From positions 2,046,001 through 2,110,000 of the forward strand of contig CP167917.1 in the NCBI GenBank assembly GCA_041504365.1: a DNA stretch of 64,000 nucleotides, in the 5' to 3' direction. Below the pieces are notes generated by a model. It made no database searches. It was not told where the DNA came from and worked only from the letters and a program-made list of their open reading frames with translations. Position numbers and translations under genes: made by a program. The first letter of the stretch is position 1. Each line of letters starts with the position of its first letter. Shown here in pieces: positions 9,274-52,125 of this stretch. Source of the DNA: Dryocola sp. LX212. GTDB taxonomy: Bacteria > Pseudomonadota > Gammaproteobacteria > Enterobacterales > Enterobacteriaceae.

Positions 9274-9354
9274 GAAGCGTAGGGCGGATAAACGAAGAGT
9301 CATCCGCCGCTGGGTTGTCTGGTGGATGGCGCTGCCGCTTATCCCCCCTACAAT
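9274..9354. repeat. REP/BIME-type palindromic pair after acnA
   Basis: Two head-to-head palindromic units lie between the convergent ends of acnA and ribA: a GTAGGGCGGATAAACG...CATCCGCC unit and a GGTGGATGGCG...CGCTTATCCCCCC unit. They resemble the other REP-like units in this window (36.8 kb and 52.1 kb) and the enterobacterial REP family. Such elements usually sit after genes and can stabilise 3' ends or stop transcription. Confidence 0.7.
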
Positions 9355-19883: not shown

Positions 19884-21146
19884 CTAGCCGCGGGCGTAAG
19901 CAACAGGAACATCCGTAATTTTTGTTGTCCAGGCTGGGGAAAGCAGAGCGCGTTTCATCTGCCACTCCTGCTGAATGCCCTGCCCGGCAAACCAGAGTTT
20001 ACCCATACCTTTCTTTTTCACCTCGTCGAGCAGGCTCATCAGGGCTTCACTGTTGGGGCGCGGAGCACGATCGTCAAACAAATTCAGCTGCGCTACGCCC
20101 TGGCTGTAGAAATCCCCCAGCATGACCCCCGCCTTTTGATAGCGTGGCCCGTTCTTCCAGATTTCATCCAGGCAGCGAGTCGCCGCCGCCATAATATCGC
20201 GCGTGTCCTGCGTGGGGGTCATAAGGCGGGTGCCGCAGTTGTTGCCGTAATAAGGTTCGTGAAGATCGAACGGGCTGCTTTTGATAAAGGCACTGATGTA
20301 GCAGCAATACTGGTGCTGGGCGCGAAGTTTTTCGGCGGCGCGTGCGGCATAGTTGCATATCGCTTCCCGAACGGAGCGGTAATCCTGCACGCGGGCGCCG
20401 AACGAGCGGGAACTGATAATTTCCTGCTTTATCGGCACAAACTCCTCAAATACCAGACAGGGCTCACCGCGCAATTCGCGAACCGTTCTTTCCAGTACGA
20501 CGCTGAAGTGTTTGCGGATAAACCGCAGATCGCTGTCTGCCAGCTGGATTACGTTGTCGATCCCCATTGCGTTCAGCTTTTTACCAATTCGCCGCCCCAC
20601 GCCCCACACTTCGCTGACAGGCATCAGCGCCATCAGCTTTCTTTGCCGCTCACGGCTGGAAAGGTCGACCACGCCTCCGGTCTGCGTCCAAAGCTTGGCC
20701 GCATGGTTGGCGAGCTTTGCCAGCGTTTTGGTGGGCGCTATGCCCACCCCTACGGTCAGCCGGGTGCGTTTATAAATAGTCCTGCGGATCTCTCGTCCAA
20801 AAGCGTCCAGATCGGGGATACCGCTTACGTCGGCGAAGGCTTCATCGATGCTGTAAACCTCCACGCGTGGGCAGATCTCTTCCAGCGTATCCATTACCCG
20901 GTAGCTCATATCACCATACAGCTCGTAGTTGCTGCTGAAGGTGATAACGTTATGCTTCTCGAAGATATCCCGCTGTTTGAAGTAGGGCGCCCCCATGGTG
21001 ATAGCCAGCTTTTTAGCTTCTGCCGAGCGGGCGATCACGCAGCCATCGTTATTGGAAAGCACCACCACCGGCAGGCCCTGTAGCTTTGGATTCCAGGCCA
21101 GCTCGCAGCTGGCATAAAATGAATTCACATCGACAAGGGCAAACAT
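19884..21146 (-). CDS. umuC: UmuC, catalytic subunit of DNA polymerase V
   Basis: Y-family translesion polymerase subunit, active as UmuD'2C on RecA-coated DNA. Palm-domain acidic residues are in MFALVDVNSFYAS (Asp6) and YSIDEAF. It has 420 residues from the start at MFALVD, close to E. coli UmuC (422). The longer open frame upstream would overlap umuD and adds an unrelated hydrophobic stretch, so it is rejected. It begins 7 bases after the umuD stop, so it is in the umuDC operon under the LexA box at 21618. Confidence 0.94.
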   Translation of the reverse strand: MFALVDVNSFYASCELAWNPKLQGLPVVVLSNNDGCVIARSAEAKKLAITMGAPYFKQRDIFEKHNVITFSSNYELYGDMSYRVMDTLEEICPRVEVYSIDEAFADVSGIPDLDAFGREIRRTIYKRTRLTVGVGIAPTKTLAKLANHAAKLWTQTGGVVDLSSRERQRKLMALMPVSEVWGVGRRIGKKLNAMGIDNVIQLADSDLRFIRKHFSVVLERTVRELRGEPCLVFEEFVPIKQEIISSRSFGARVQDYRSVREAICNYAARAAEKLRAQHQYCCYISAFIKSSPFDLHEPYYGNNCGTRLMTPTQDTRDIMAAATRCLDEIWKNGPRYQKAGVMLGDFYSQGVAQLNLFDDRAPRPNSEALMSLLDEVKKKGMGKLWFAGQGIQQEWQMKRALLSPAWTTKITDVPVAYARG

Positions 21147-21153
21147 AGCGCGA

Positions 21154-21600
21154 TCAACTTGCTGACTGGCGGGTGCAAACGCGACGAAAAGTATTAATGA
21201 CGGTAGTGACAACGCCCACGATGCGGGTATCGTCCTCATCATTAAGCAAAATCGGCGCATACTCCGGGTTTTCTGCTCGCAGGTGCGGGGTGGGGCGCAG
21301 CACCAGGCGTTTCACGGTGAACTCACCGTTCAGGCAGGCGACAACGATATCGTGATGGTCGGCCCGCAGGCTGCTGTCTACCAGCAGCAATGAGCCGTCC
21401 AGAATACCGGCATCCCGCATCGATTCGCCCGAGACTCGCAGCACGTAGGTTGCAGAAGGGTGGGAGATCAGGTGCTTTACTAGGTTGATCCCCTCATCCA
21501 TATAATCTGCCGCCGGGCTGGGGAAACCCGCAGAGATGCGCTCCAGGTAAAGGGGAAGCGTCGGGGAGTTCAGGCTGACGTCAAGACGGTACAACATCAT
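21154..21600 (-). CDS. umuD: UmuD, self-cleaving accessory subunit of DNA polymerase V
   Basis: LexA-like S24 peptidase fold. RecA filaments promote self-cleavage to UmuD', which joins UmuC. The catalytic serine (SGESM, Ser60) and lysine (FTVKRL, Lys97) are at the E. coli positions. The cleavage site is Ala24-Gly25, as in LexA and MucA, where E. coli UmuD has Cys24-Gly25. Two tandem ATG codons start it; the first gives the E. coli residue numbering. The C-terminus runs a few residues longer than E. coli UmuD (148 against 139). A LexA box lies 17 bases upstream. Confidence 0.93.
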   Translation of the reverse strand: MMLYRLDVSLNSPTLPLYLERISAGFPSPAADYMDEGINLVKHLISHPSATYVLRVSGESMRDAGILDGSLLLVDSSLRADHHDIVVACLNGEFTVKRLVLRPTPHLRAENPEYAPILLNDEDDTRIVGVVTTVINTFRRVCTRQSAS

Positions 21601-21617
21601 GATCGGTTACTCATATG

Positions 21618-21637
21618 TACTGTGAATACATACAGTG
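21618..21637 (-). promoter_or_regulatory. LexA (SOS) box of umuDC
   Basis: TACTGTGAATACATACAGTG has the perfect CTG-N10-CAG core and matches the LexA consensus closely. It lies just upstream of umuD, where SOS repression of umuDC is expected. Confidence 0.93.
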
Positions 21638-21654
21638 TTAACTGAATTGCTATC

Positions 21655-21711
21655 GCGATCAAGTCGCTTGCCGACACTTTCTGAAAAGCGCTTGATGTGC
21701 TGATGAATTTA
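21655..21711. repeat. 57 bp module, copy 1 (umuD side)
   Basis: This stretch recurs at 27646-27702 with 54 of 57 bases identical, same orientation. It contains an imperfect inverted repeat (ATCAAGTCGCTT ... AAGCGCTTGAT) that could fold into a hairpin. It begins 17 bases after the end of a LexA box, as does the second copy. The two copies bracket the autotransporter and LysR genes. Confidence 0.85.
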
Positions 21712-22035
21712 TTTTTGCAGGGTCGGGAGCCAGCAGTCGCAGCAGAGAAAGAGAAAATACCTTTCCAGGAATGCATCACGCGATCTACCACGCCTCTCAT
21801 TTAATTTTTTATTACATTTTCACTTGCATACGATTAAACACAAATTAATTCGCAATTAAATTCTGCTTATGTTAGTGGCTGGCATATTTATTTAACATGA
21901 TTGAATAAGGTGCGCTGGTTATTTTTTAAGGCATTTATTTCGTCATTGCCTTGAGCGTAATGGGAAGGTTCATGCTTGCCATGAATTTTTATTGATCACT
22001 GCTGCAAGAATACTATGGTGTCTGGAGGCATTCAT
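21712..22035. other. AT-rich leader of the autotransporter gene
   Basis: Together with the SOS box and repeat this makes a gene-free gap of about 435 bases. The sequence becomes strongly AT-rich from about 21800, as expected for a promoter region silenced by nucleoid proteins in acquired DNA (inference). No coding frame of recognisable product lies in it. Confidence 0.5.
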
Positions 22036-25000
22036 ATGAAAATAATTAAAATTTTGTCAACGGACGCTCATCACGCCCCTTGTTCTCTTCATTTAAAAAC
22101 ATCCGCGAGCCTGATTGCCGGGGTTCTAAGCTTTGGTTGCATGGATGCAAATGCAGACATCGACGTGAACACATCCGGAAATGCAGGTATTACCAGTTCA
22201 GGTTTATATGTTGATGAAAATATAAAAATGTATGCGACCAGGACCACAGGCATCAAAGCAGAAAACAATACGAATATTTCTCTAAGCCTGGGAAGCATTA
22301 AAAACAATGCTGTCTCCGCTGCCGGAGCAAAGGGTCAGGTCGGAATCAGCGCCGCTGAGAATAGTCATATTTCCCTCACGGATACTACCGTATTAATGGA
22401 TCCCAAAACGGGTACTGGCGCAACAGTGACCGCAAATGACATGAGAGGAATTGTTGTTAATTCTGGCAGCCGTGTGGTTCTGGATAACACCAGTGTTATC
22501 CTCGGCGGGGGAGCAAAGGGGAATAATAATGGGGGCGCTGTCGTCTCCGGCGATGACGCTGAAATTTCCCTGAAAAATTCCTCTCTACTGACGTCTTCAT
22601 GGGGGGCGGTAGGCGTAGCAGCAGGACAAGGAGGCAGAATCAATCTTACGGAGGGAACCAAAATTCTGACCACCGGGACTCGCGGGAATAATGGCGGCAG
22701 TCATGGCATTACTGTAGAGAGCGCTGGAAGCCAGCTGTATGCAGAAAACGCCTCAATCAACACGACCGGCGGCTCGGCATATGGTGTAAAGGCAACCGAA
22801 GGGGGGAAACTCGATTTAAAAGATACCGCCATCTACACCGGCGGGGGCTATGGACATGGGGTAGTCATCGATGGTCCATCGGAGGCGACGATTTCAGGCG
22901 GCCTCATCCAGACTACGGGCAAAGGGGCTACTGGATTATGGGCGCGTAGCGGTGCCAACGTTAATCTGCAGAACGGTGGAAAAATAGAGACGTCAGGGGC
23001 AGCGATATCAGCTACCGCCCCGCTGGATAACGAAAAAACGCTCAGCCTGAGTCATGTATTACTGGCCAGTGGTGAAAACACCGTGGTTACCGGACGAGAC
23101 CTCCAGTTAACTTCTTCTGCCGTGAGCGCGAGTGCTGTAAGAGCCGAAGATAATGCCCGGATCTCCTTATTTGACACTCTTGTTGAGACCACCGGCACGG
23201 CAACCAGCACGACGACCACCGCAGCCCTGCACGCATTGTCTGGTGCGGCTATCAGCGGGACCGGTTTGTCTGTCGACGTTAGCGGAACAAATCAGGGTGG
23301 AATCCGTGCCGAAGGCGCGAACAGCGAAATTTCCCTTGTTAACAGCACGGTCTCCGTCAGCGGTCCGGGAAATGCGCTGCATTCCAGTGCCGCTGCTCGC
23401 GCCATTTCGGGGGCGTCTGTTTCCGTGACCCACTCTGCCTTAACCACCACCGGCATGACAAGCCACGGTGTCTCCGTGGAAGGTGCGGGTTCCCGCGCCC
23501 TGATCCGCGACACAACTATTGAAACGCGTGGCGCACGCAGCTCAAGTGTGAACATCAACGACGGAGCTAGTGCCGAAATCTACAGCAGTAAAATGCTGAC
23601 TACCGCAGGCTCGGGCATCACTGGTCCGTGGTCGCCGGGGATATTGCTTCAGGGAGCTGGTTCATCCTTGCTTCTGAAAGACAGCGAGATTTTCACTACG
23701 CAAAGCCCCAGCGGCGGGATCAGTGCCGGCAGCGGCAGCCAGCTTGAGGTGAACACAAGCAGAATAACCACCTCCGGTGATTATGGTACCGGTATTGGCG
23801 TCGCCAACAGCACCGCAGTCATCACCAACAGCCATATTAATACCTCCGGCAATGATAATGCGATGGGGATTGTGGCGAACGGCGGTGCTACGGTAACGGT
23901 AACGGGAGGCAGCGTCACCACGACTGGCAACGGCTCGCCGGTACAGTCAAATCTCACGTTCCCTCACGCCCTGGCCTCACGCAGCCCCGGTGCAATGCTC
24001 ACCGTTGATGGAACCACCCTGGTGACAAAAGGCGCTCAGGCCTACGGTGCCACCGCCGATGACGGCGGAAGCATCATCCTGAGAAATCTGTCAGTCAAAA
24101 CGCTGGGGGAAAACTCAATCGGTTTATATGCCGGTATCGGCGTGCTAAAACCGGGCAGCGTGGGGCTGACCGCGACAAATGTTTCCGTCGAAACGCTGGG
24201 TGATAATGCGGCCGGTGCGTTTGCTGGCCGCAAATATAAATCTGAAACCGCTGAAATGGCGCTGGACGGCGTCGCGCTGGCAACGCATGGTGATAATTCA
24301 CTTGGGCTCTGGGCTGAAGCAGGTGCCGGGCTGACGGCTAATAATACTGTGATAACCACCGACGGTGCGCTATCTCACGGCATTCTGGCGAGCAACGGCG
24401 GGCGGGTTCAGGCGAATAATGTCGTGGTCACAGCGCACGGCGAAAATGCGGCGGCGCTGGCCGTTCAGGGAACAGATGCCTGGACCGGGCAGGCAAATTT
24501 AATGAACACGACCCTTTCAGGGGAGCATGGCCACGGCATTGAAACCACCGGTTATGCGGATATCACTATGCAGAACAGCCGGGTGACAGGAGAACGGCAG
24601 TGGTTACAGGTAAACAATGGGGCGGGTAATTTGCAGGGTCACGCTAATATTAATCTGTCCGGGAGTGTGGCTACCGGTGCGGCGTTAACGCAGGACAATG
24701 CACATTCAGAAGTCGCGCTGAACAACACCAGCCTGTGGTTCTTAACCGATAATTCTGTGCTCGGTACGCTAAGTAATAATCAAAGCCTTATTCATTTCAG
24801 TACGTCAGAGAACCATCAGTATAAGTCATTGACGGTGAATAATTATCACGGCGACAACGGAACAATTGCGTTAAATACGCATCTGCACGATGACAATTCC
24901 CCCTCGGACCAGGTGGTGATTAATCGCGGACATGCCGATGGCTCAACCAATCTTAAAATCTCGAATACCAACGGCAGCGGCGCACTGACTCGCGGCAACG

Positions 25001-26439
25001 GTATTAAAGTCGTGGATGCCATCAATGGTGGGACCACGACAGCCGGAGCGTTCAGCTTGTTAAGTAAAGTGAAGGCGGGGCCGTATCAGTACACACTATA
25101 TCGATCAAGCGTGGACGGGAGTAATGAGCAGGCGTGGTACCTGCGTTCACATAAAGAAACCGATAGCCCGGGCAATGATATCGTTATCCCGCCGAATAAA
25201 CCTGATGATGAAATTCCTGCCATTCCACCAGATAATAAGCCTGATGATGAAACGCCTGCCATTCCACCAGATAATAAGCCTGATGATGAAACGCCTGCCA
25301 TTCCACCAGATAATAAACCTGATGATGAAATCCCTGCCGTTCCATCAGATAATAAGCCTGATCCGGGAAAACAACCGCCAGAAGGCAGCGATGAGACAGG
25401 CAATGATGGGGAAGGGGCACCCCCTGATCCGGTTGTTGAGCGACCTGTCGTCCCTGATTACCGAGCTGAAACCTCGCTGTATAAAGAGCTTCCGCAGCTG
25501 GCTTTACTCTACAATCGCATGCTCATGGACAGCCTCCATGAACGTACCGGCGAGCAATTCGCCAGCCCGGAAAATATTAAAAGAGCCGAAGCATCGCCTT
25601 CAATGAGCTGGGGGCGTGCCATCTATAAAAAAGGACGTCTGGATTTAAATGAATCCGAATCACGGTTTACGCTGAATGCCATTCAGCTGGGCATCGATTT
25701 ATACCGTAGGAGGAATGAAGAAGGGCGTTCCGATTTTGCCGGCGTGACGGGGAGTTTGGGCAAAATTAATAGCAAGGTCACGCACGCTGAGGGTGAATTT
25801 GCGGGCAGGAATGCCCTCAAATCGTGGGGTGCAGGCGTTTACTGGACTCATTTTACACCATCGGGCACCTATCTGGATGCCGTTGCGCAATACAATCGCT
25901 ATTATGCGGAGTCTTCACCGCACGACCTGGCTACGGTGAAGACAAAGGGCTATGGTTTAGCTGCCTCGCTGGAGACAGGATACCCATGGCAGCCTGACAA
26001 AAACGTGAAGCGTTTCGTTGAACCCCAGGCGCAGCTGGTTTATTCAACCGCAAAGCTGGACCGTCTTGATGATGATGCCGCTACCGTTAACTTTAGTAAA
26101 AGCGAGTCGCTTACAGGCCGGGTAAGCTTACGTTTTCACCAGACCTGGGATCATAACGGCAAAGAGAAAAACAGGAATAAACAGACCCAAACGACGCTCT
26201 GGCTACGTCCGGGGCTCCTGCATGAGTTCAAAGGGAAAAGCAGCACGGAATTTAGTTCGCAGGATGGCGCTGTGCCTTTCACCGCTAATACATCAGGAAC
26301 ATCGGGGCAGGTTATTGCCGGGAAAGATCATCAGTTTAACAACAGCGTTTCGCTTACCGGTACAATGAGCTACGAAAAATCCCTGGCGGGAGAGAATAAA
26401 AATTATGGTGGCATCGTCGGTATTAAAATAAAGTTTTAA
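22036..26439 (+). CDS. Large autotransporter adhesin (type Va secretion)
   Basis: A 1467-residue AIDA/pertactin-type autotransporter. It has an extended N-terminus with a signal peptide ending near MDANA. A very long passenger rich in Gly, Ser, Thr, Asn and TTG/GHG motifs follows, in repeats typical of a right-handed beta-helix. Then come a proline-rich linker with four 13-residue repeats and a C-terminal beta-barrel of about 280 residues ending in KIKF, a terminal Phe as needed for outer-membrane assembly. The ATG at 22036 has TGGAGG seven bases upstream; the ATG at 22015 has none. Its role is probably adhesion or biofilm, but no subfamily name is assigned. It converges on a LysR gene. Confidence 0.9.
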   Translation: MKIIKILSTDAHHAPCSLHLKTSASLIAGVLSFGCMDANADIDVNTSGNAGITSSGLYVDENIKMYATRTTGIKAENNTNISLSLGSIKNNAVSAAGAKGQVGISAAENSHISLTDTTVLMDPKTGTGATVTANDMRGIVVNSGSRVVLDNTSVILGGGAKGNNNGGAVVSGDDAEISLKNSSLLTSSWGAVGVAAGQGGRINLTEGTKILTTGTRGNNGGSHGITVESAGSQLYAENASINTTGGSAYGVKATEGGKLDLKDTAIYTGGGYGHGVVIDGPSEATISGGLIQTTGKGATGLWARSGANVNLQNGGKIETSGAAISATAPLDNEKTLSLSHVLLASGENTVVTGRDLQLTSSAVSASAVRAEDNARISLFDTLVETTGTATSTTTTAALHALSGAAISGTGLSVDVSGTNQGGIRAEGANSEISLVNSTVSVSGPGNALHSSAAARAISGASVSVTHSALTTTGMTSHGVSVEGAGSRALIRDTTIETRGARSSSVNINDGASAEIYSSKMLTTAGSGITGPWSPGILLQGAGSSLLLKDSEIFTTQSPSGGISAGSGSQLEVNTSRITTSGDYGTGIGVANSTAVITNSHINTSGNDNAMGIVANGGATVTVTGGSVTTTGNGSPVQSNLTFPHALASRSPGAMLTVDGTTLVTKGAQAYGATADDGGSIILRNLSVKTLGENSIGLYAGIGVLKPGSVGLTATNVSVETLGDNAAGAFAGRKYKSETAEMALDGVALATHGDNSLGLWAEAGAGLTANNTVITTDGALSHGILASNGGRVQANNVVVTAHGENAAALAVQGTDAWTGQANLMNTTLSGEHGHGIETTGYADITMQNSRVTGERQWLQVNNGAGNLQGHANINLSGSVATGAALTQDNAHSEVALNNTSLWFLTDNSVLGTLSNNQSLIHFSTSENHQYKSLTVNNYHGDNGTIALNTHLHDDNSPSDQVVINRGHADGSTNLKISNTNGSGALTRGNGIKVVDAINGGTTTAGAFSLLSKVKAGPYQYTLYRSSVDGSNEQAWYLRSHKETDSPGNDIVIPPNKPDDEIPAIPPDNKPDDETPAIPPDNKPDDETPAIPPDNKPDDEIPAVPSDNKPDPGKQPPEGSDETGNDGEGAPPDPVVERPVVPDYRAETSLYKELPQLALLYNRMLMDSLHERTGEQFASPENIKRAEASPSMSWGRAIYKKGRLDLNESESRFTLNAIQLGIDLYRRRNEEGRSDFAGVTGSLGKINSKVTHAEGEFAGRNALKSWGAGVYWTHFTPSGTYLDAVAQYNRYYAESSPHDLATVKTKGYGLAASLETGYPWQPDKNVKRFVEPQAQLVYSTAKLDRLDDDAATVNFSKSESLTGRVSLRFHQTWDHNGKEKNRNKQTQTTLWLRPGLLHEFKGKSSTEFSSQDGAVPFTANTSGTSGQVIAGKDHQFNNSVSLTGTMSYEKSLAGENKNYGGIVGIKIKF
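25201..25356 (+). repeat. Four tandem 39 bp repeats in the autotransporter linker
   Basis: Four in-frame copies of a 39 bp unit encode the 13-residue sequence PDDE(I/T)PA(I/V)P(P/S)DNK. The middle two are almost identical in DNA, indicating recent expansion. They form a stiff acidic, proline-rich stalk between passenger and barrel, and copy number could vary by slippage without breaking frame. Confidence 0.92.
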
Positions 26440-26477
26440 ATTTCATAGCGTATTCATATGAGCGTACTTAAAATTAA

Positions 26478-27407
26478 TTATGGCCTGGTCCTATTTAAAA
26501 GGATTTGTAAAAAAAACCGAAAATTATTTGATGCTTCCATTTCCTTGCGGTACGTCATGTAGATATCTATTTTTGGAACAGGAAATAAAGGCTTTATCGC
26601 TCGCAGATTAAAAAAACCAGCCAGGTCAAAAAATGTTTTGCTGGAAACAAAACCAATGCAGTCAGTTTGTGAAAGGACGGATAACTGAGCCAGAACAGAA
26701 TTGGTTTCAAAGACGAAATGCCGACTCCCAACACTCTCCATAGAGGTCTTTTGAATGTATTTTACGTAACTGTCTGAGTTTATATACCCAACAAAATCAA
26801 GCGTTTCTAGTTGCTCTGATGTGATGTCTTTTTCATGGTAAGGATTGGTGCTACGGCAAACCAAAACGAATTCTGTTTTAGAGTATTGAATGCACTTCAA
26901 TGCCGGATTGATGATAGGTGCCGCGGAGAAAATAACATCCACTTTTCGTAAGTTGAGGAGCTCATCTGCATCAGGTAGATAGACGTTCGTTTCTATGTAT
27001 TTTATTTTATAAGGTATTTTGTCATCTTTTATCTTTTTTAGCAGGGTGGGTAGATCGTGCAGCACGAGAGAGAAGGGAGAGTAGATTACCAGTTCTTCCC
27101 TTTTGTTTGTTTTTTCAACGTGATTGACAGCGTCACTTATTTGTTCAATAAGTTTATGCGTTTGTACATAAAGATCGTCAGAAAAAAGAGTAGGGGAAAT
27201 AGAGTTGCCATGACGAATGAAAAGGGGATCCTGAAAATGAAGCCGCAACTTTTGCAATGACTGACTAACCGAGGGCGGAGTTACCCCCAATATCTCTGAT
27301 ACAGCAGTAATGCTTCTTGTGGAATAGATAAGGCAGAAAATAGTTAATAAGTTCAGGTTGAAAGAAGTGACGCCCATAAGTTTGTCTGATATATGTTCTC
27401 TGTTCAT
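26478..27407 (-). CDS. LysR-family regulator, YbdO/YbeF-like, AT-rich
   Basis: A LysR-type regulator of 309 residues. The N-terminal helix-turn-helix reads NLNLLTIFCLIYST...VTPPSVSQSLQKLR. A periplasmic-binding-like effector domain follows. The helix-turn-helix resembles the LeuO/YbdO/YbeF branch. Its DNA is visibly more AT-rich than the housekeeping genes, a sign of acquisition. It faces the autotransporter tail to tail, 38 bases apart, so it does not share a promoter with it. It may still regulate it, but nothing in the sequence proves this. Effector unknown. Confidence 0.82.
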   Translation of the reverse strand: MNREHISDKLMGVTSFNLNLLTIFCLIYSTRSITAVSEILGVTPPSVSQSLQKLRLHFQDPLFIRHGNSISPTLFSDDLYVQTHKLIEQISDAVNHVEKTNKREELVIYSPFSLVLHDLPTLLKKIKDDKIPYKIKYIETNVYLPDADELLNLRKVDVIFSAAPIINPALKCIQYSKTEFVLVCRSTNPYHEKDITSEQLETLDFVGYINSDSYVKYIQKTSMESVGSRHFVFETNSVLAQLSVLSQTDCIGFVSSKTFFDLAGFFNLRAIKPLFPVPKIDIYMTYRKEMEASNNFRFFLQILLNRTRP

Positions 27408-27608
27408 TTTTATACCGTTGGTTAATTCGCTTCAAAATTATACTTGTATATTGTTACGGACGATTTATTCAGAAACGCTACTGCACAGCATAAATAAGTA
27501 TTCCTGAGTATAGTGGACAATATAGGCAGCGTGAGCGGATCGCTACGTATTTACCAGGCACTACAGAAGCATAGCAGAAGCATAAATGCCTCAAAAGACG
27601 CCTTTATA
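27408..27608. other. Intergenic region upstream of the LysR gene
   Basis: This is the left part of a gene-free stretch of about 400 bases (to 27803). It is AT-rich and contains two copies of AGAAGCATA nine bases apart near 27560. It presumably holds the LysR promoter. No remnant of umuD or a transposase was recognised. Confidence 0.4.
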
Positions 27609-27628
27609 TACTGTGATTATATCCAGTC
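27609..27628. promoter_or_regulatory. Second LexA-like box, orphan
   Basis: TACTGTGATTATATCCAGTC has the CTG-N10-CAG core and fits the LexA consensus, somewhat less well than the umuD box. No SOS-type gene starts beside it; the nearest genes are the LysR gene (201 bases, leftward) and btsS (176 bases, rightward). It is spaced 17 bases from the 57 bp module exactly as at umuD, so it looks like a duplicated umuD promoter region. Confidence 0.7.
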
Positions 27629-27645
27629 TTGGACCGGAGGCTGTA

Positions 27646-27702
27646 GCGATCAAGCCGCTTGCCGACACTTTCTAAAAAACGCTTGATGTGCTGATGAATT
27701 TA
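27646..27702. repeat. 57 bp module, copy 2 (btsS side)
   Basis: Direct repeat of 21655-21711, 54 of 57 bases identical. Weaker similarity continues a few bases leftward (58 of 63 from 27640). Two of the three changes weaken the internal inverted repeat, so this looks like the copy under less constraint. Confidence 0.85.
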
Positions 27703-27803
27703 GCTCGTTATCACGGCGCGTTTCGGTAACTTCAGGCTGATTCAAAGAAATAGTTTCCGTTGCAGGGTACAGTCGCGGCGTGTTGGATAACGGATGTCCG
27801 GAT

Positions 27804-29492
27804 ATGTATGAATTCAATTTAGTTTTGCTGCTGTTACAGCAAATGTGCGTGTTTCTGGTTATCGCCTGGCTGATGAGCAAAACACGCCTGTTTATTCCGC
27901 TGGTGCAGGTTACCGTGCGGCTGCCGCACAAGCTGCTGTGCTACATCACCTTCTCCATCTTCTGCATTATGGGCACCTATTTTGGCCTGCATATCGAAGA
28001 TTCGATTGCCAATACTCGCGCCATTGGTGCCGTGATGGGCGGCCTGCTGGGTGGGCCGGCGGTCGGGGGATTGGTGGGGCTGACCGGGGGCATTCATCGC
28101 TACTCCATGGGCGGAATGACGGCGCTCAGCTGCATGATCTCCACCATTGCGGAGGGGCTGCTGGGCGGCCTTGTTCACAGCGTGCTTATCAAGCGCGGGC
28201 GTCCCGATAAAATTTTTAATCCACTGGTGGCAGGCGGCGTCACATTTGTGGCGGAAATGGTGCAGATGGCGATCATTCTGCTTATCGCCCGGCCTTTTCA
28301 GGACGCGCTGTCGCTGGTCAGCAATATTGCCGCGCCGATGATGGTGACCAACACTCTGGGCGCCGCGATGTTTATGCGCATCCTGCTGGACAGGCGCGCC
28401 ATGTTTGAAAAATACACTTCGGCTTTCTCGGCAACGGCGCTGAAAGTGGCGGCCTCTACGGAAGGGATCCTGCGGCGGGGCTTTAACGAAGAGAACAGTA
28501 TGAAGGTGGCGCAGGTGCTGCTTAAAGAGCTGGATATCGGTGCCGTGGCGATCACGGATCGCGAAAAGCTGCTGGCCTTTACCGGCATCGGTGACGATCA
28601 CCATCTGGTGGGTAAACGTATCTCTTCTGACTATACCTGGCGGGCCATCGAGCATGACGAGGTGGTCTATGCGGACGGCAACGAGATGCCTTACCGCTGC
28701 TCGCTGCATCCCAACTGCAAGCTCGGTTCAACGCTGGTGATCCCTTTGCGCGGTGAAAATAAGCGGGTTATCGGTACGATAAAACTGTACGAGGCACGTA
28801 ACCGGCTCTTCAGCTCCATCAACCGCACGCTGGGGGAAGGCATCGCCCAGCTGCTGTCGGCCCAGATCCTGGCCGGCAAGTTCGAACAGCAAAAGGCGCT
28901 GCTGGCGCAGTCTGAAATCAAACTGTTGCATGCCCAGGTGAATCCACACTTCCTGTTCAACGCCCTGAATACGTTGATGGCGGTCATCCGTAACGACAGC
29001 GAGAAGGCCGGGCAGTTGGTGCACTACCTGTCGACATTCTTTCGCAAAAATCTTAAGCGCTCCTCCGGCACGGTCTCCCTGGCCGACGAGCTGGAGCATG
29101 TGAACGCCTATCTGCAAATTGAGCTGGCGCGCTTCCCGACCCAGCTGAAGGTGGATTTACAGGTGCCGGACATGCTGTCACAGCACAGCCTGCCCGCATT
29201 CACTCTGCAGCCGCTGGTGGAAAATGCGATTAAACACGGCACTTCGCACCTGCTGTGCAACGGCAATATCATTATTCGCGCTTACGCCGAAAACGAGCTG
29301 GTGGTTATTGAGGTGGAAGATAACGCCGGGCTGTACCAGCCGGAAAAAATCAGCGATGGACTGGGCATGAGCCTGGTTGATAAACGTCTGCGCGCGCGTT
29401 TTGGCGACGATTACGGTATTACCGTAAGCTGCAAACCCGATGAGTTTACTCGCGTCACTTTAAGACTGCCGGTGGAGGGATCCGCATGTTGA
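27804..29492 (+). CDS. btsS: BtsS (YehU), LytS-type pyruvate-sensing histidine kinase
   Basis: Membrane sensor kinase that in E. coli binds external pyruvate with high affinity and signals to BtsR. The start [15 protein letters not shown] gives 562 residues, as in E. coli. It has six to seven hydrophobic spans of the 5TM-LYT input domain ([18 protein letters not shown] region), a GAF-like domain, then a HisKA_7TM/LytS kinase core. That core has the phospho-accepting His in [13 protein letters not shown] and the ATP-site NAIKHG. A GTG eight codons earlier opens the frame but is not part of the family. It overlaps btsR by seven bases. Confidence 0.95.
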
Positions 29493-30205
29493 GAATACTG
29501 ATTGTTGATGACGAGCCGCTGGCGCTCGAGAATTTACGTTTGTTGCTGGAGGGCGAAAGCGATATTGAGATCGTCGGGGAGTGCACCAACGCCATAGAGG
29601 CGATTGGCACCATTCATAAGCTCCGTCCCGACGTGGTATTTCTGGATATCCACATGCCGCGCATCAGCGGGCTGGAGATGGTCGGCATGCTCGACGAGCA
29701 GCATCGCCCGCACATTGTTTTTCTCACCGCCTTTGATGAGTACGCGGTGCAGGCCTTTGAACAGTGCGCCTTTGACTACCTGCTGAAGCCCATTCAGACG
29801 GCACGTCTGCAAAAGACGCTGGACAGGCTCCGGCAGGGAAATCAGCAGCAGGATGTTTCGCAGCTGCCTGACTACCAGCAGCCGCTGAAATTTATCCCCT
29901 GCCTCAGTAGCAGCCGGATCTGGCTGCTACAGCTGGAAGATGTCGCCTTTGTCAGCAGCCGGGTGGGCGGGGTGTACGTCACCCGTCAGGACGGCACGGA
30001 GAGCTTCACCGAGCTGACATTGCGCACGCTGGAAACGCGAACGCCGCTGCTGCGCTGCCACCGGCAGTACCTGGTAAACATGAATTACCTGAAGGAGATC
30101 CGCCTGGAGGATAAAAATCAGGCGGAGCTGCTGCTGCGCGACGGGCAAATCGTGCCGGTCAGCCGCCGCTATCTGAAAGCGCTGAAGGAGACGGTGGGGC
30201 TGTAA
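29486..30205 (+). CDS. btsR: BtsR (YehT), LytTR response regulator
   Basis: Response regulator of 239 residues. The receiver domain has acidic residues IVDDEP, phospho-acceptor Asp in [10 protein letters not shown], Thr in FLTAFDEYA and Lys in LLKPIQ. A C-terminal LytTR DNA-binding domain ([12 protein letters not shown] region) follows. In E. coli it activates btsT. It overlaps btsS, so the two are translationally coupled. Here the target transporter gene lies in the same neighbourhood, unlike K-12. It converges on yjiA, 14 bases apart. Confidence 0.95.
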
Positions 30206-51892: not shown

Positions 51893-52125
51893 CGCTGGTG
51901 CTTATCCGGCCTACGGTTATGGAACTGTGGAATGGATTTGCCGGATGACACTGGTGCTTATCGGGCCTACGGTTGGGGAACTGCGGGATGGATTTGCCGG
52001 ATGACGCTGGTGCTTACCCGGTCTACGGCTGGGAAATTGCGGGATGGATTTGCCGGATGACGCTGATGCTTATCCGGCCTACGGTTGTGAGTCGTAGGGT
52101 GGATAAGCGCAGCGTCATCCACCGG
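51885..52125. repeat. Tandem REP/BIME array, 56 bp period
   Basis: Four units starting at 51885, 51941, 51997 and 52053, each beginning CCGGATGACRCTGRTGCTTA and continuing through a palindrome to CCTACGGTTG, repeat with an exact 56 bp period. A fifth, inverted unit (52094-52125) of the GTAGGGTGGATAAGCG...CATCCACCGG type closes the array just before the lacZ stop. It lies between the 3' ends of the LysR gene and lacZ. Confidence 0.9.

Follow-up and report, generated by a model that had tools for sequence, protein, structure and literature searches.

A 5,991-bp segment of accessory DNA lies between umuD and a btsS-like gene in Dryocola sp. LX212, and it is bounded at both ends by copies of the umuD promoter region. 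The segment carries a gene for an autotransporter, an adhesin-like surface protein, and a lysR gene, and was analyzed within a 64,000-nt window of the genome (contig CP167917.1 of assembly GCA_041504365.1, positions 2,046,001-2,110,000, forward strand). A close relative, Cedecea sulfonylureivorans, carries the uninterrupted site. From the pattern of divergence between the repeat copies, we infer that homologous recombination brought the segment in, on DNA that held a diverged umuD-type promoter, an origin to which we give about an even chance.

The repeat consists of a LexA-type box, a 17-base gap and a 57-bp module, which recur in identical order, orientation and spacing at positions 21618-21711 and 27609-27702. 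The left and right copies match at 54 of 57 bases in the module, 16 of 20 in the box and 6 of 17 in the gap. A first-pass annotation of this DNA had described the arrangement and the close match of the modules, and the sequence confirms both; the divergence of box and gap is added here. A repeat search of the window lengthens the module pair to 63 nt at 92% identity. The module repeat is not due to chance: apart from the two copies, the window matches the module at no more than 30/57 on that strand and 31/57 on the opposite one, and 100 base-shuffled windows at no more than 33/57. A DNA search of the organism's own genome (E ≤ 0.001) finds exactly two copies of the repeat and no third.

The LexA boxes of both copies retain CTG-N10-CAG. 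They are also the two top-scoring sites in the window with a LexA matrix (21.5 for the left box and 18.8 for the right), the next site scoring 11.7. The matrix was built from 16 Escherichia coli boxes, whose own scores range from 14.1 to 25.3.

In C. sulfonylureivorans (hereafter the sister species), the site is empty: umuC and umuD are followed by a single box and a single module, and then directly by btsS. When the flanks of the segment are joined at the module, they align with the sister's DNA without gaps at 2309 of 2400 bases (96.2%), with 1151 of 1200 bases identical on the left and 1158 of 1200 on the right. The window genome is therefore 5,991 bp longer at this locus. On the left side of the insert, homology to the sister ends at 21711. 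The first-pass annotation had proposed to look for strains with umuDC joined to btsS through one module, and the finding of such a site in the sister species supports its view of a segment flanked by long direct repeats, each a version of the umuD promoter region. The empty site of the sister may instead reflect secondary loss through recombination between the repeats. However, the sister's module is not the product of a simple crossover between the left and right modules, although the differing bases could be later changes.

The repeat is rare. Among 60 genomes of relatives, it is detected (E ≤ 0.001) only in the organism's own genome and in that of the sister, a same-genus species. Among 392 genomes of the family, strong matches (E ≤ 10^-21) are likewise confined to these two (best E values 5 × 10^-101 and 7 × 10^-65, respectively). 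Twelve other family genomes yield matches of only 19-51 bases (E = 0.0017-0.0087), which we take as chance or short promoter similarity. In a collection of 84,980 species, which possibly lacks the record of the window itself, the exact core of the module occurs in one record, NZ_JAERMU010000008.1 of C. sulfonylureivorans. Each of these genome collections holds one genome per species. The repeat has no match in E. coli genomes, plasmids or phages, and the module core has none in viral contigs. Thus, the repeat does not behave as a sequence dispersed over many unrelated loci, the case that had been named as refuting the first-pass reading.

The 57-bp module had been interpreted as a separate module linked to the SOS response. 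A comparison of umuDC-type upstream regions anchored at the LexA box corrects this interpretation, and identifies the 57 bp as part of the umuD promoter, namely its upstream half. The comparison comprises 35 of 38 loci plus the left copy (36 in total); three loci were dropped for a low box score or a short upstream stretch. The sister and E. coli are among the loci compared, and a few genomes contribute two loci each; in four loci the box lies only 40-131 bases before umuC, with no whole umuD between. The hexamer TTGATC occurs 17, 18 or 19 bp upstream of the box in 24 of the 36 promoters (16, 5 and 3 loci, respectively). In both window copies it lies at 19 bp (minus strand, 21657-21662 and 27648-27653), and its position suggests that it is the -35 hexamer. 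TAAAT is found 71-76 bases upstream of the box in 11 occurrences within the set. The module spans the interval from just before the TTGATC hexamer to its terminal TAAATT, so that the duplicated unit is a complete umuD-type promoter region. In module and box, both copies align with the empty-site copy in the same register, the right gap being the diverged part (Table 1), which points to umuD-type descent for each.

This link between the module and the umuD promoter rests mainly on the box-anchored comparison, and two results count against it. Twelve of the 36 promoters lack TTGATC at 17-19 bp. Moreover, when nine umuDC upstream regions from outside the window and the sister were aligned without the anchor, a weak test for umuD, only that of the Cedecea genome G001 beat every one of 200 shuffles. 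The module score of the other eight was reached by 4, 6 and 11 of 200 shuffles in three regions and by 66-144 in five. A reading of the module as a btsS element is not supported; for the btsS upstream regions of three genomes (G285, G343 and G005), 102, 68 and 9 of 200 shuffles, respectively, scored at least as high against the module.

It had further been suggested that the right edge of the segment placed btsS near a LexA site. The distance from the start of the LexA box to the start of the btsS open reading frame (ORF) is 171 bp in the window. Because the sister's single box lies at the same 171 bp, btsS was not brought to a LexA site by the insertion. The DNA upstream of btsS is native from 27703 on, with 73 of 77 bases as in the sister. 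The DNA outside each copy is native, which leaves umuD with its complete promoter region and btsS with its original upstream DNA and a LexA-type box. Taken as a whole, the earlier interpretation stands in its repeat-bounded segment and its empty site, and falls in its separate SOS-linked module and in its placement of btsS.

The right copy is uneven, in that its gap is far more diverged than its module, a contrast absent from the first-pass annotation. The left and right copies differ at 3 of 57 bases in the module and at 11 of 17 in the gap (Fisher p = 8 × 10^-7, post hoc); the boundaries used were drawn by that annotation from the same data, so that the Fisher tests are descriptive. Relative to the sister, the right copy differs at 3 of 57 module bases, 3 of 20 box bases and 10 of 17 gap bases. 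Private changes are present in each of the three module copies (left, right and sister).

In the origin that we favor, the segment would have entered through homologous recombination, either by a single crossover with a circle or by recombination with the DNA of a relative. The incoming DNA would have carried a diverged umuD-type promoter, and the crossover would fall in the conserved module. Such a crossover would leave native sequence outside and donor sequence inside, which would fit the uneven right copy. The left promoter copy still serves umuD, and the diverged second copy resides at the far end, beside btsS and facing lysR.

Several observations weigh against recombination with a diverged donor. 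No donor molecule or donor junction was found in phage, plasmid and family-genome searches. A 243-bp query from the right end of the segment (27408-27650) matches only the organism's own genome (1 of 343 family genomes). The segment DNA has no phage match, and its one plasmid match, an Ochrobactrum record, covers 213 bp of the autotransporter gene only. When the right gap is compared with other umuDC-type promoters, its score is reached by 494 of 500 shuffles; it resembles them no more than shuffled sequence does, and gives no support to a foreign origin of the gap. The species of the window is represented by a single genome. Finally, the same picture could result from a simple duplication that is old and has decayed unevenly, or from a promoter already duplicated in tandem when the segment inserted.

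The first of these alternatives, an insertion accompanied by a target duplication of ~94-98 bp, is credible though doubtful. A staggered break or a replicative event would have produced the duplication, and the right copy, no longer driving umuD, would then have decayed. In its favor, native DNA lies outside both copies, the empty site contains the repeated unit as a single uninterrupted stretch, and private changes in all three module copies are what an old duplication would leave. However, decay would be expected to be roughly even, and the differences of the right copy from the sister are concentrated in the gap. We also know of no enterobacterial transposon with target duplications of this length, which counts against such an event.

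An initial tandem duplication of the umuD promoter, with later insertion of the cassette between the copies, would explain both the old divergence of the copies and an insertion that makes no duplication of its own. We regard this sequence of events as quite improbable, since it requires two events, the sister has one copy, and no tandem pair is seen among the 60 relatives or the 392 family genomes.

A site-specific island, in which the module is the attL/attR core and the integrase gene has been lost, is very improbable. As in integrase-type islands, long direct repeats flank the segment and a relative, the sister, has the empty site, and the left module contains an imperfect inverted repeat (plus strand) that only 3 of 200 shuffles fold equally well. 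However, the fold of the right copy is ordinary (equaled by 108 of 200 shuffles), and no integrase or other recombinase gene was recognized in the segment, in which small overlapping ORFs were not searched. The repeat also runs past the module into the LexA box at a fixed spacing, as promoter sequence does, and neither module nor repeat is matched in phages, plasmids or viral contigs. A composite transposon or a cassette borne by insertion sequences (IS) was rejected, as no transposase among the ORFs searched and no IS ends with short target repeats were recognized. A 15-nt inverted pair (93%) lies near the ends of the segment, at 21924-21938 and 27582-27596, and pairs of similar size occur elsewhere in the segment.

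Between the repeats, the genes recognized are those that the first-pass annotation had listed, an autotransporter gene and an AT-rich lysR gene, which are convergent. They are the family-matched genes (Pfam, NCBIfam) among ORFs of at least 80 amino acids (aa), smaller overlapping ORFs not having been searched; within the same scope, no transposase or integrase is recognized, again as described earlier. The GC content is 49% in the segment and 38.5% in lysR, compared with 54.3% in the window. The autotransporter matches the Ag43 and AIDA-I models only far below their cut-offs. Four tandem 39-bp units are present in its gene between passenger and barrel (25195-25350), and encode a proline- and aspartate-rich repeat.

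Table 1. Features of the segment and its flanks (window positions)
Feature	Position	Strand	Evidence
umuC, DNA polymerase V catalytic subunit; native, intact	19884..21158	-	NCBIfam NF002955, 717 bits, above cut-off; 96% aa identity to sister
umuD	21154..21600	-	Pfam Peptidase_S24; NCBIfam NF007621 above cut-off; 97% aa identity to sister
Native LexA-type box of umuD (left copy)	21618..21637		Best LexA-matrix site in window; 19/20 to sister
Gap of left copy, 17 bases	21638..21654		15/17 to sister; 6/17 to right copy
Left 57-bp module, upstream half of umuD promoter	21655..21711	-	55/57 to sister; 54/57 to right copy
Insert-specific AT-rich leader of autotransporter gene	21712..22035		38% GC
Autotransporter, 1467 aa, AC_1 autochaperone and beta-barrel	22036..26439	+	Pfam PF18883, PF03797; TIGR01414
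LysR-type regulator, 309 aa, 38.5% GC	26478..27407	-	Pfam HTH_1, LysR_substrate; best NCBIfam model CitR, below cut-off
Intergenic 201 bp specific to the insert, from lysR to right LexA box	27408..27608		No relative found
Right LexA-type box	27609..27628		Second-best LexA-matrix site in window; 17/20 to sister's box
Gap of right copy, 17 bases, strongly diverged	27629..27645		7/17 to sister; 6/17 to left copy
Right 57-bp module, part of a second umuD-type promoter region that faces lysR and is completed by it	27646..27702	-	54/57 to left copy; 54/57 to sister
btsS-like sensor kinase; true start may be a few codons inside	27780..29492	+	Pfam 5TMR_LYT, His_kinase; 99% aa identity to sister
btsR-like response regulator	29486..30205	+	96% aa identity to sister

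The names btsS and btsR are those that we presume for these genes; no NCBIfam model names btsS, and btsR was not searched against families. On the other side of umuDC, the sister (contig L031, 4541-7646) has ~3.1 kb downstream of umuC, including a 515-aa ORF resembling a membrane protein, which the window (19888-19933) does not have. Therefore, that side of umuDC is variable too.

Matches to the autotransporter at E ≤ 10^-150 are found in 5 of the 392 family genomes, including the organism's own, and these represent three genera. A LysR relative (50-80% aa identity) adjoins the autotransporter in each of the four other genomes. One of them, G285 (contig L084), belongs to another genus and has a convergent pair with 69% and 79-80% aa identity to that of the window. 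There, the pair has a 5' piece of umuD on one side and, on the other, a foreign umuDC followed by 3' pieces of umuC; a transposase gene lies in between. From its sequence, and with no family search, we take this transposase to be IS3-type. In the other three, all from genus g20, the cassette has genes on one flank that we presume to be of the mdaB/qseBC type, and genes on the other that we presume to be of the nanA type (G343 and G024) or the parE type (G277). The autotransporter-lysR pair is thus a rare accessory cassette in differing contexts. It is present at a umuDC locus in two of the three genera, which may be no more than coincidence.

Other searches of the segment gave little. LysR protein matches nine plasmid records at ~30% identity and has no match in viral contigs. 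Bases 24000-27603 have no match in E. coli genomes (21712-23999 was not searched there). Rfam detects nothing up to E = 1 in 21100-28100. A search for remnants of umuD or umuC in the two insert-side intergenic stretches gave no significant match (best E = 0.047), and none was found in 27408-27660.

Selection might have retained the right copy as an SOS promoter of lysR, in which case DNA damage would alter the regulator and, in turn, the autotransporter. This proposal concerns function and is compatible with any origin of the repeat; we consider it rather unlikely. The right box keeps CTG-N10-CAG, its score is within the range of the E. coli boxes behind the matrix, and it faces lysR from ~200 bp upstream, with TATAAT inside the box on the lysR strand. 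However, one half-site reads GACTGG, compared with TACTGT or CACTGT in most other umuDC-type promoters, and the resulting leader would be ~200 bases long. In G285, no LexA box is present between lysR and the upstream transposase gene. A sigma-70 scan of 27380-27830 reports no site of 9/12, although this negative is weak because the same scan also fails to report the native umuD promoter as described. No umuD or known SOS gene lies directly downstream of the right copy, lysR being 200 bp away.

Thus, the right copy may bind LexA and lysR may be under SOS control, as a possibility and not a finding. A further proposal, which is unlikely, is that the segment inserted at a divergent SOS promoter, gained a second copy of it, and so brought its own lysR, and via it the surface autotransporter, under the control of LexA with both host genes left unharmed. 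If this were true, surface display would change upon DNA damage, and the occurrence of the pair at umuDC loci in two genera would reveal how adhesin-like genes can enter the SOS regulon.

Insertions at SOS loci have been described before. Genes of the umuC/rulB type are insertion hotspots, and integron-like elements reside in rulB of Pseudomonas, according to an earlier report (PMC4542609). These elements likewise bring accessory DNA to a umuDC-type SOS operon. As described there, they occupy one fixed position inside rulB, have a 3-bp GAT repeat and encode a xer-type integrase. In contrast, umuC is intact here and it is the promoter region that took up the insertion, with repeats of ~94 bp and no recombinase gene recognized. 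In a second report (PMC4405046), a mobile element of Vibrio cholerae disrupts recA, brings along a complete but divergent recA and is excised in circular form. It resembles the present segment as an insertion at an SOS locus that brings a diverged version of the interrupted part. However, only a promoter region is duplicated here.

Compared with the umuD promoter and LexA operator of Enterobacteriaceae, both window copies share the LexA box and the upstream TTGATC, whereas the right copy has no umuD behind it, a diverged spacer and the GACTGG half-site. The pair in G285 has the same convergent genes and likewise lies between umuDC pieces, but there the umuDC operon that contains it is disrupted, and a foreign umuDC and a transposase gene lie next to it, neither of which occurs in the window.

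A limited literature search met no earlier report of this insertion. We rate it as a fairly ordinary accessory insertion, though one with clear bounds and an informative repeat; it resembles the rulB and recA elements in part and belongs to neither. Together with its empty site, it cleanly documents the entry of accessory genes into a divergent SOS promoter region with no visible harm to the neighbors, and adds a promoter-side example to the insertions collected by umuDC-type loci. A repeat that resembles a mobile module is shown here to be promoter sequence of an ordinary kind. Should the second copy of the promoter be functional, a surface protein would be tied to DNA damage.

The foreign umuDC of G285 (L084, 13530-16200) has a near-identical counterpart in a genome of a different genus, G193 (L146, 7533-9945). 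The two share 427 of 440 UmuC residues and 93.4% of their DNA over 2.1 kb, and in both genomes the foreign genes abut a native umuC that starts near codon 78. This arrangement suggests a mobile umuDC that inserts into umuC. Among the matches listed, umuC matches start at codon 77, 78 or 84 in G095, G193, G199, G222, G096 and G091 (L147, L148 and L150), those of G095 and G096 extending to the end of the contig. Possibly, this is a recurrent insertion point in enterobacterial umuC.

Short repeats of 30-36 bp are found across several genomes, including the window (9321-9353 and 52048-52124), the sister (L031, 13255-13288) and contig L085 (5606-5641). They are perhaps intergenic repeats of the REP type.

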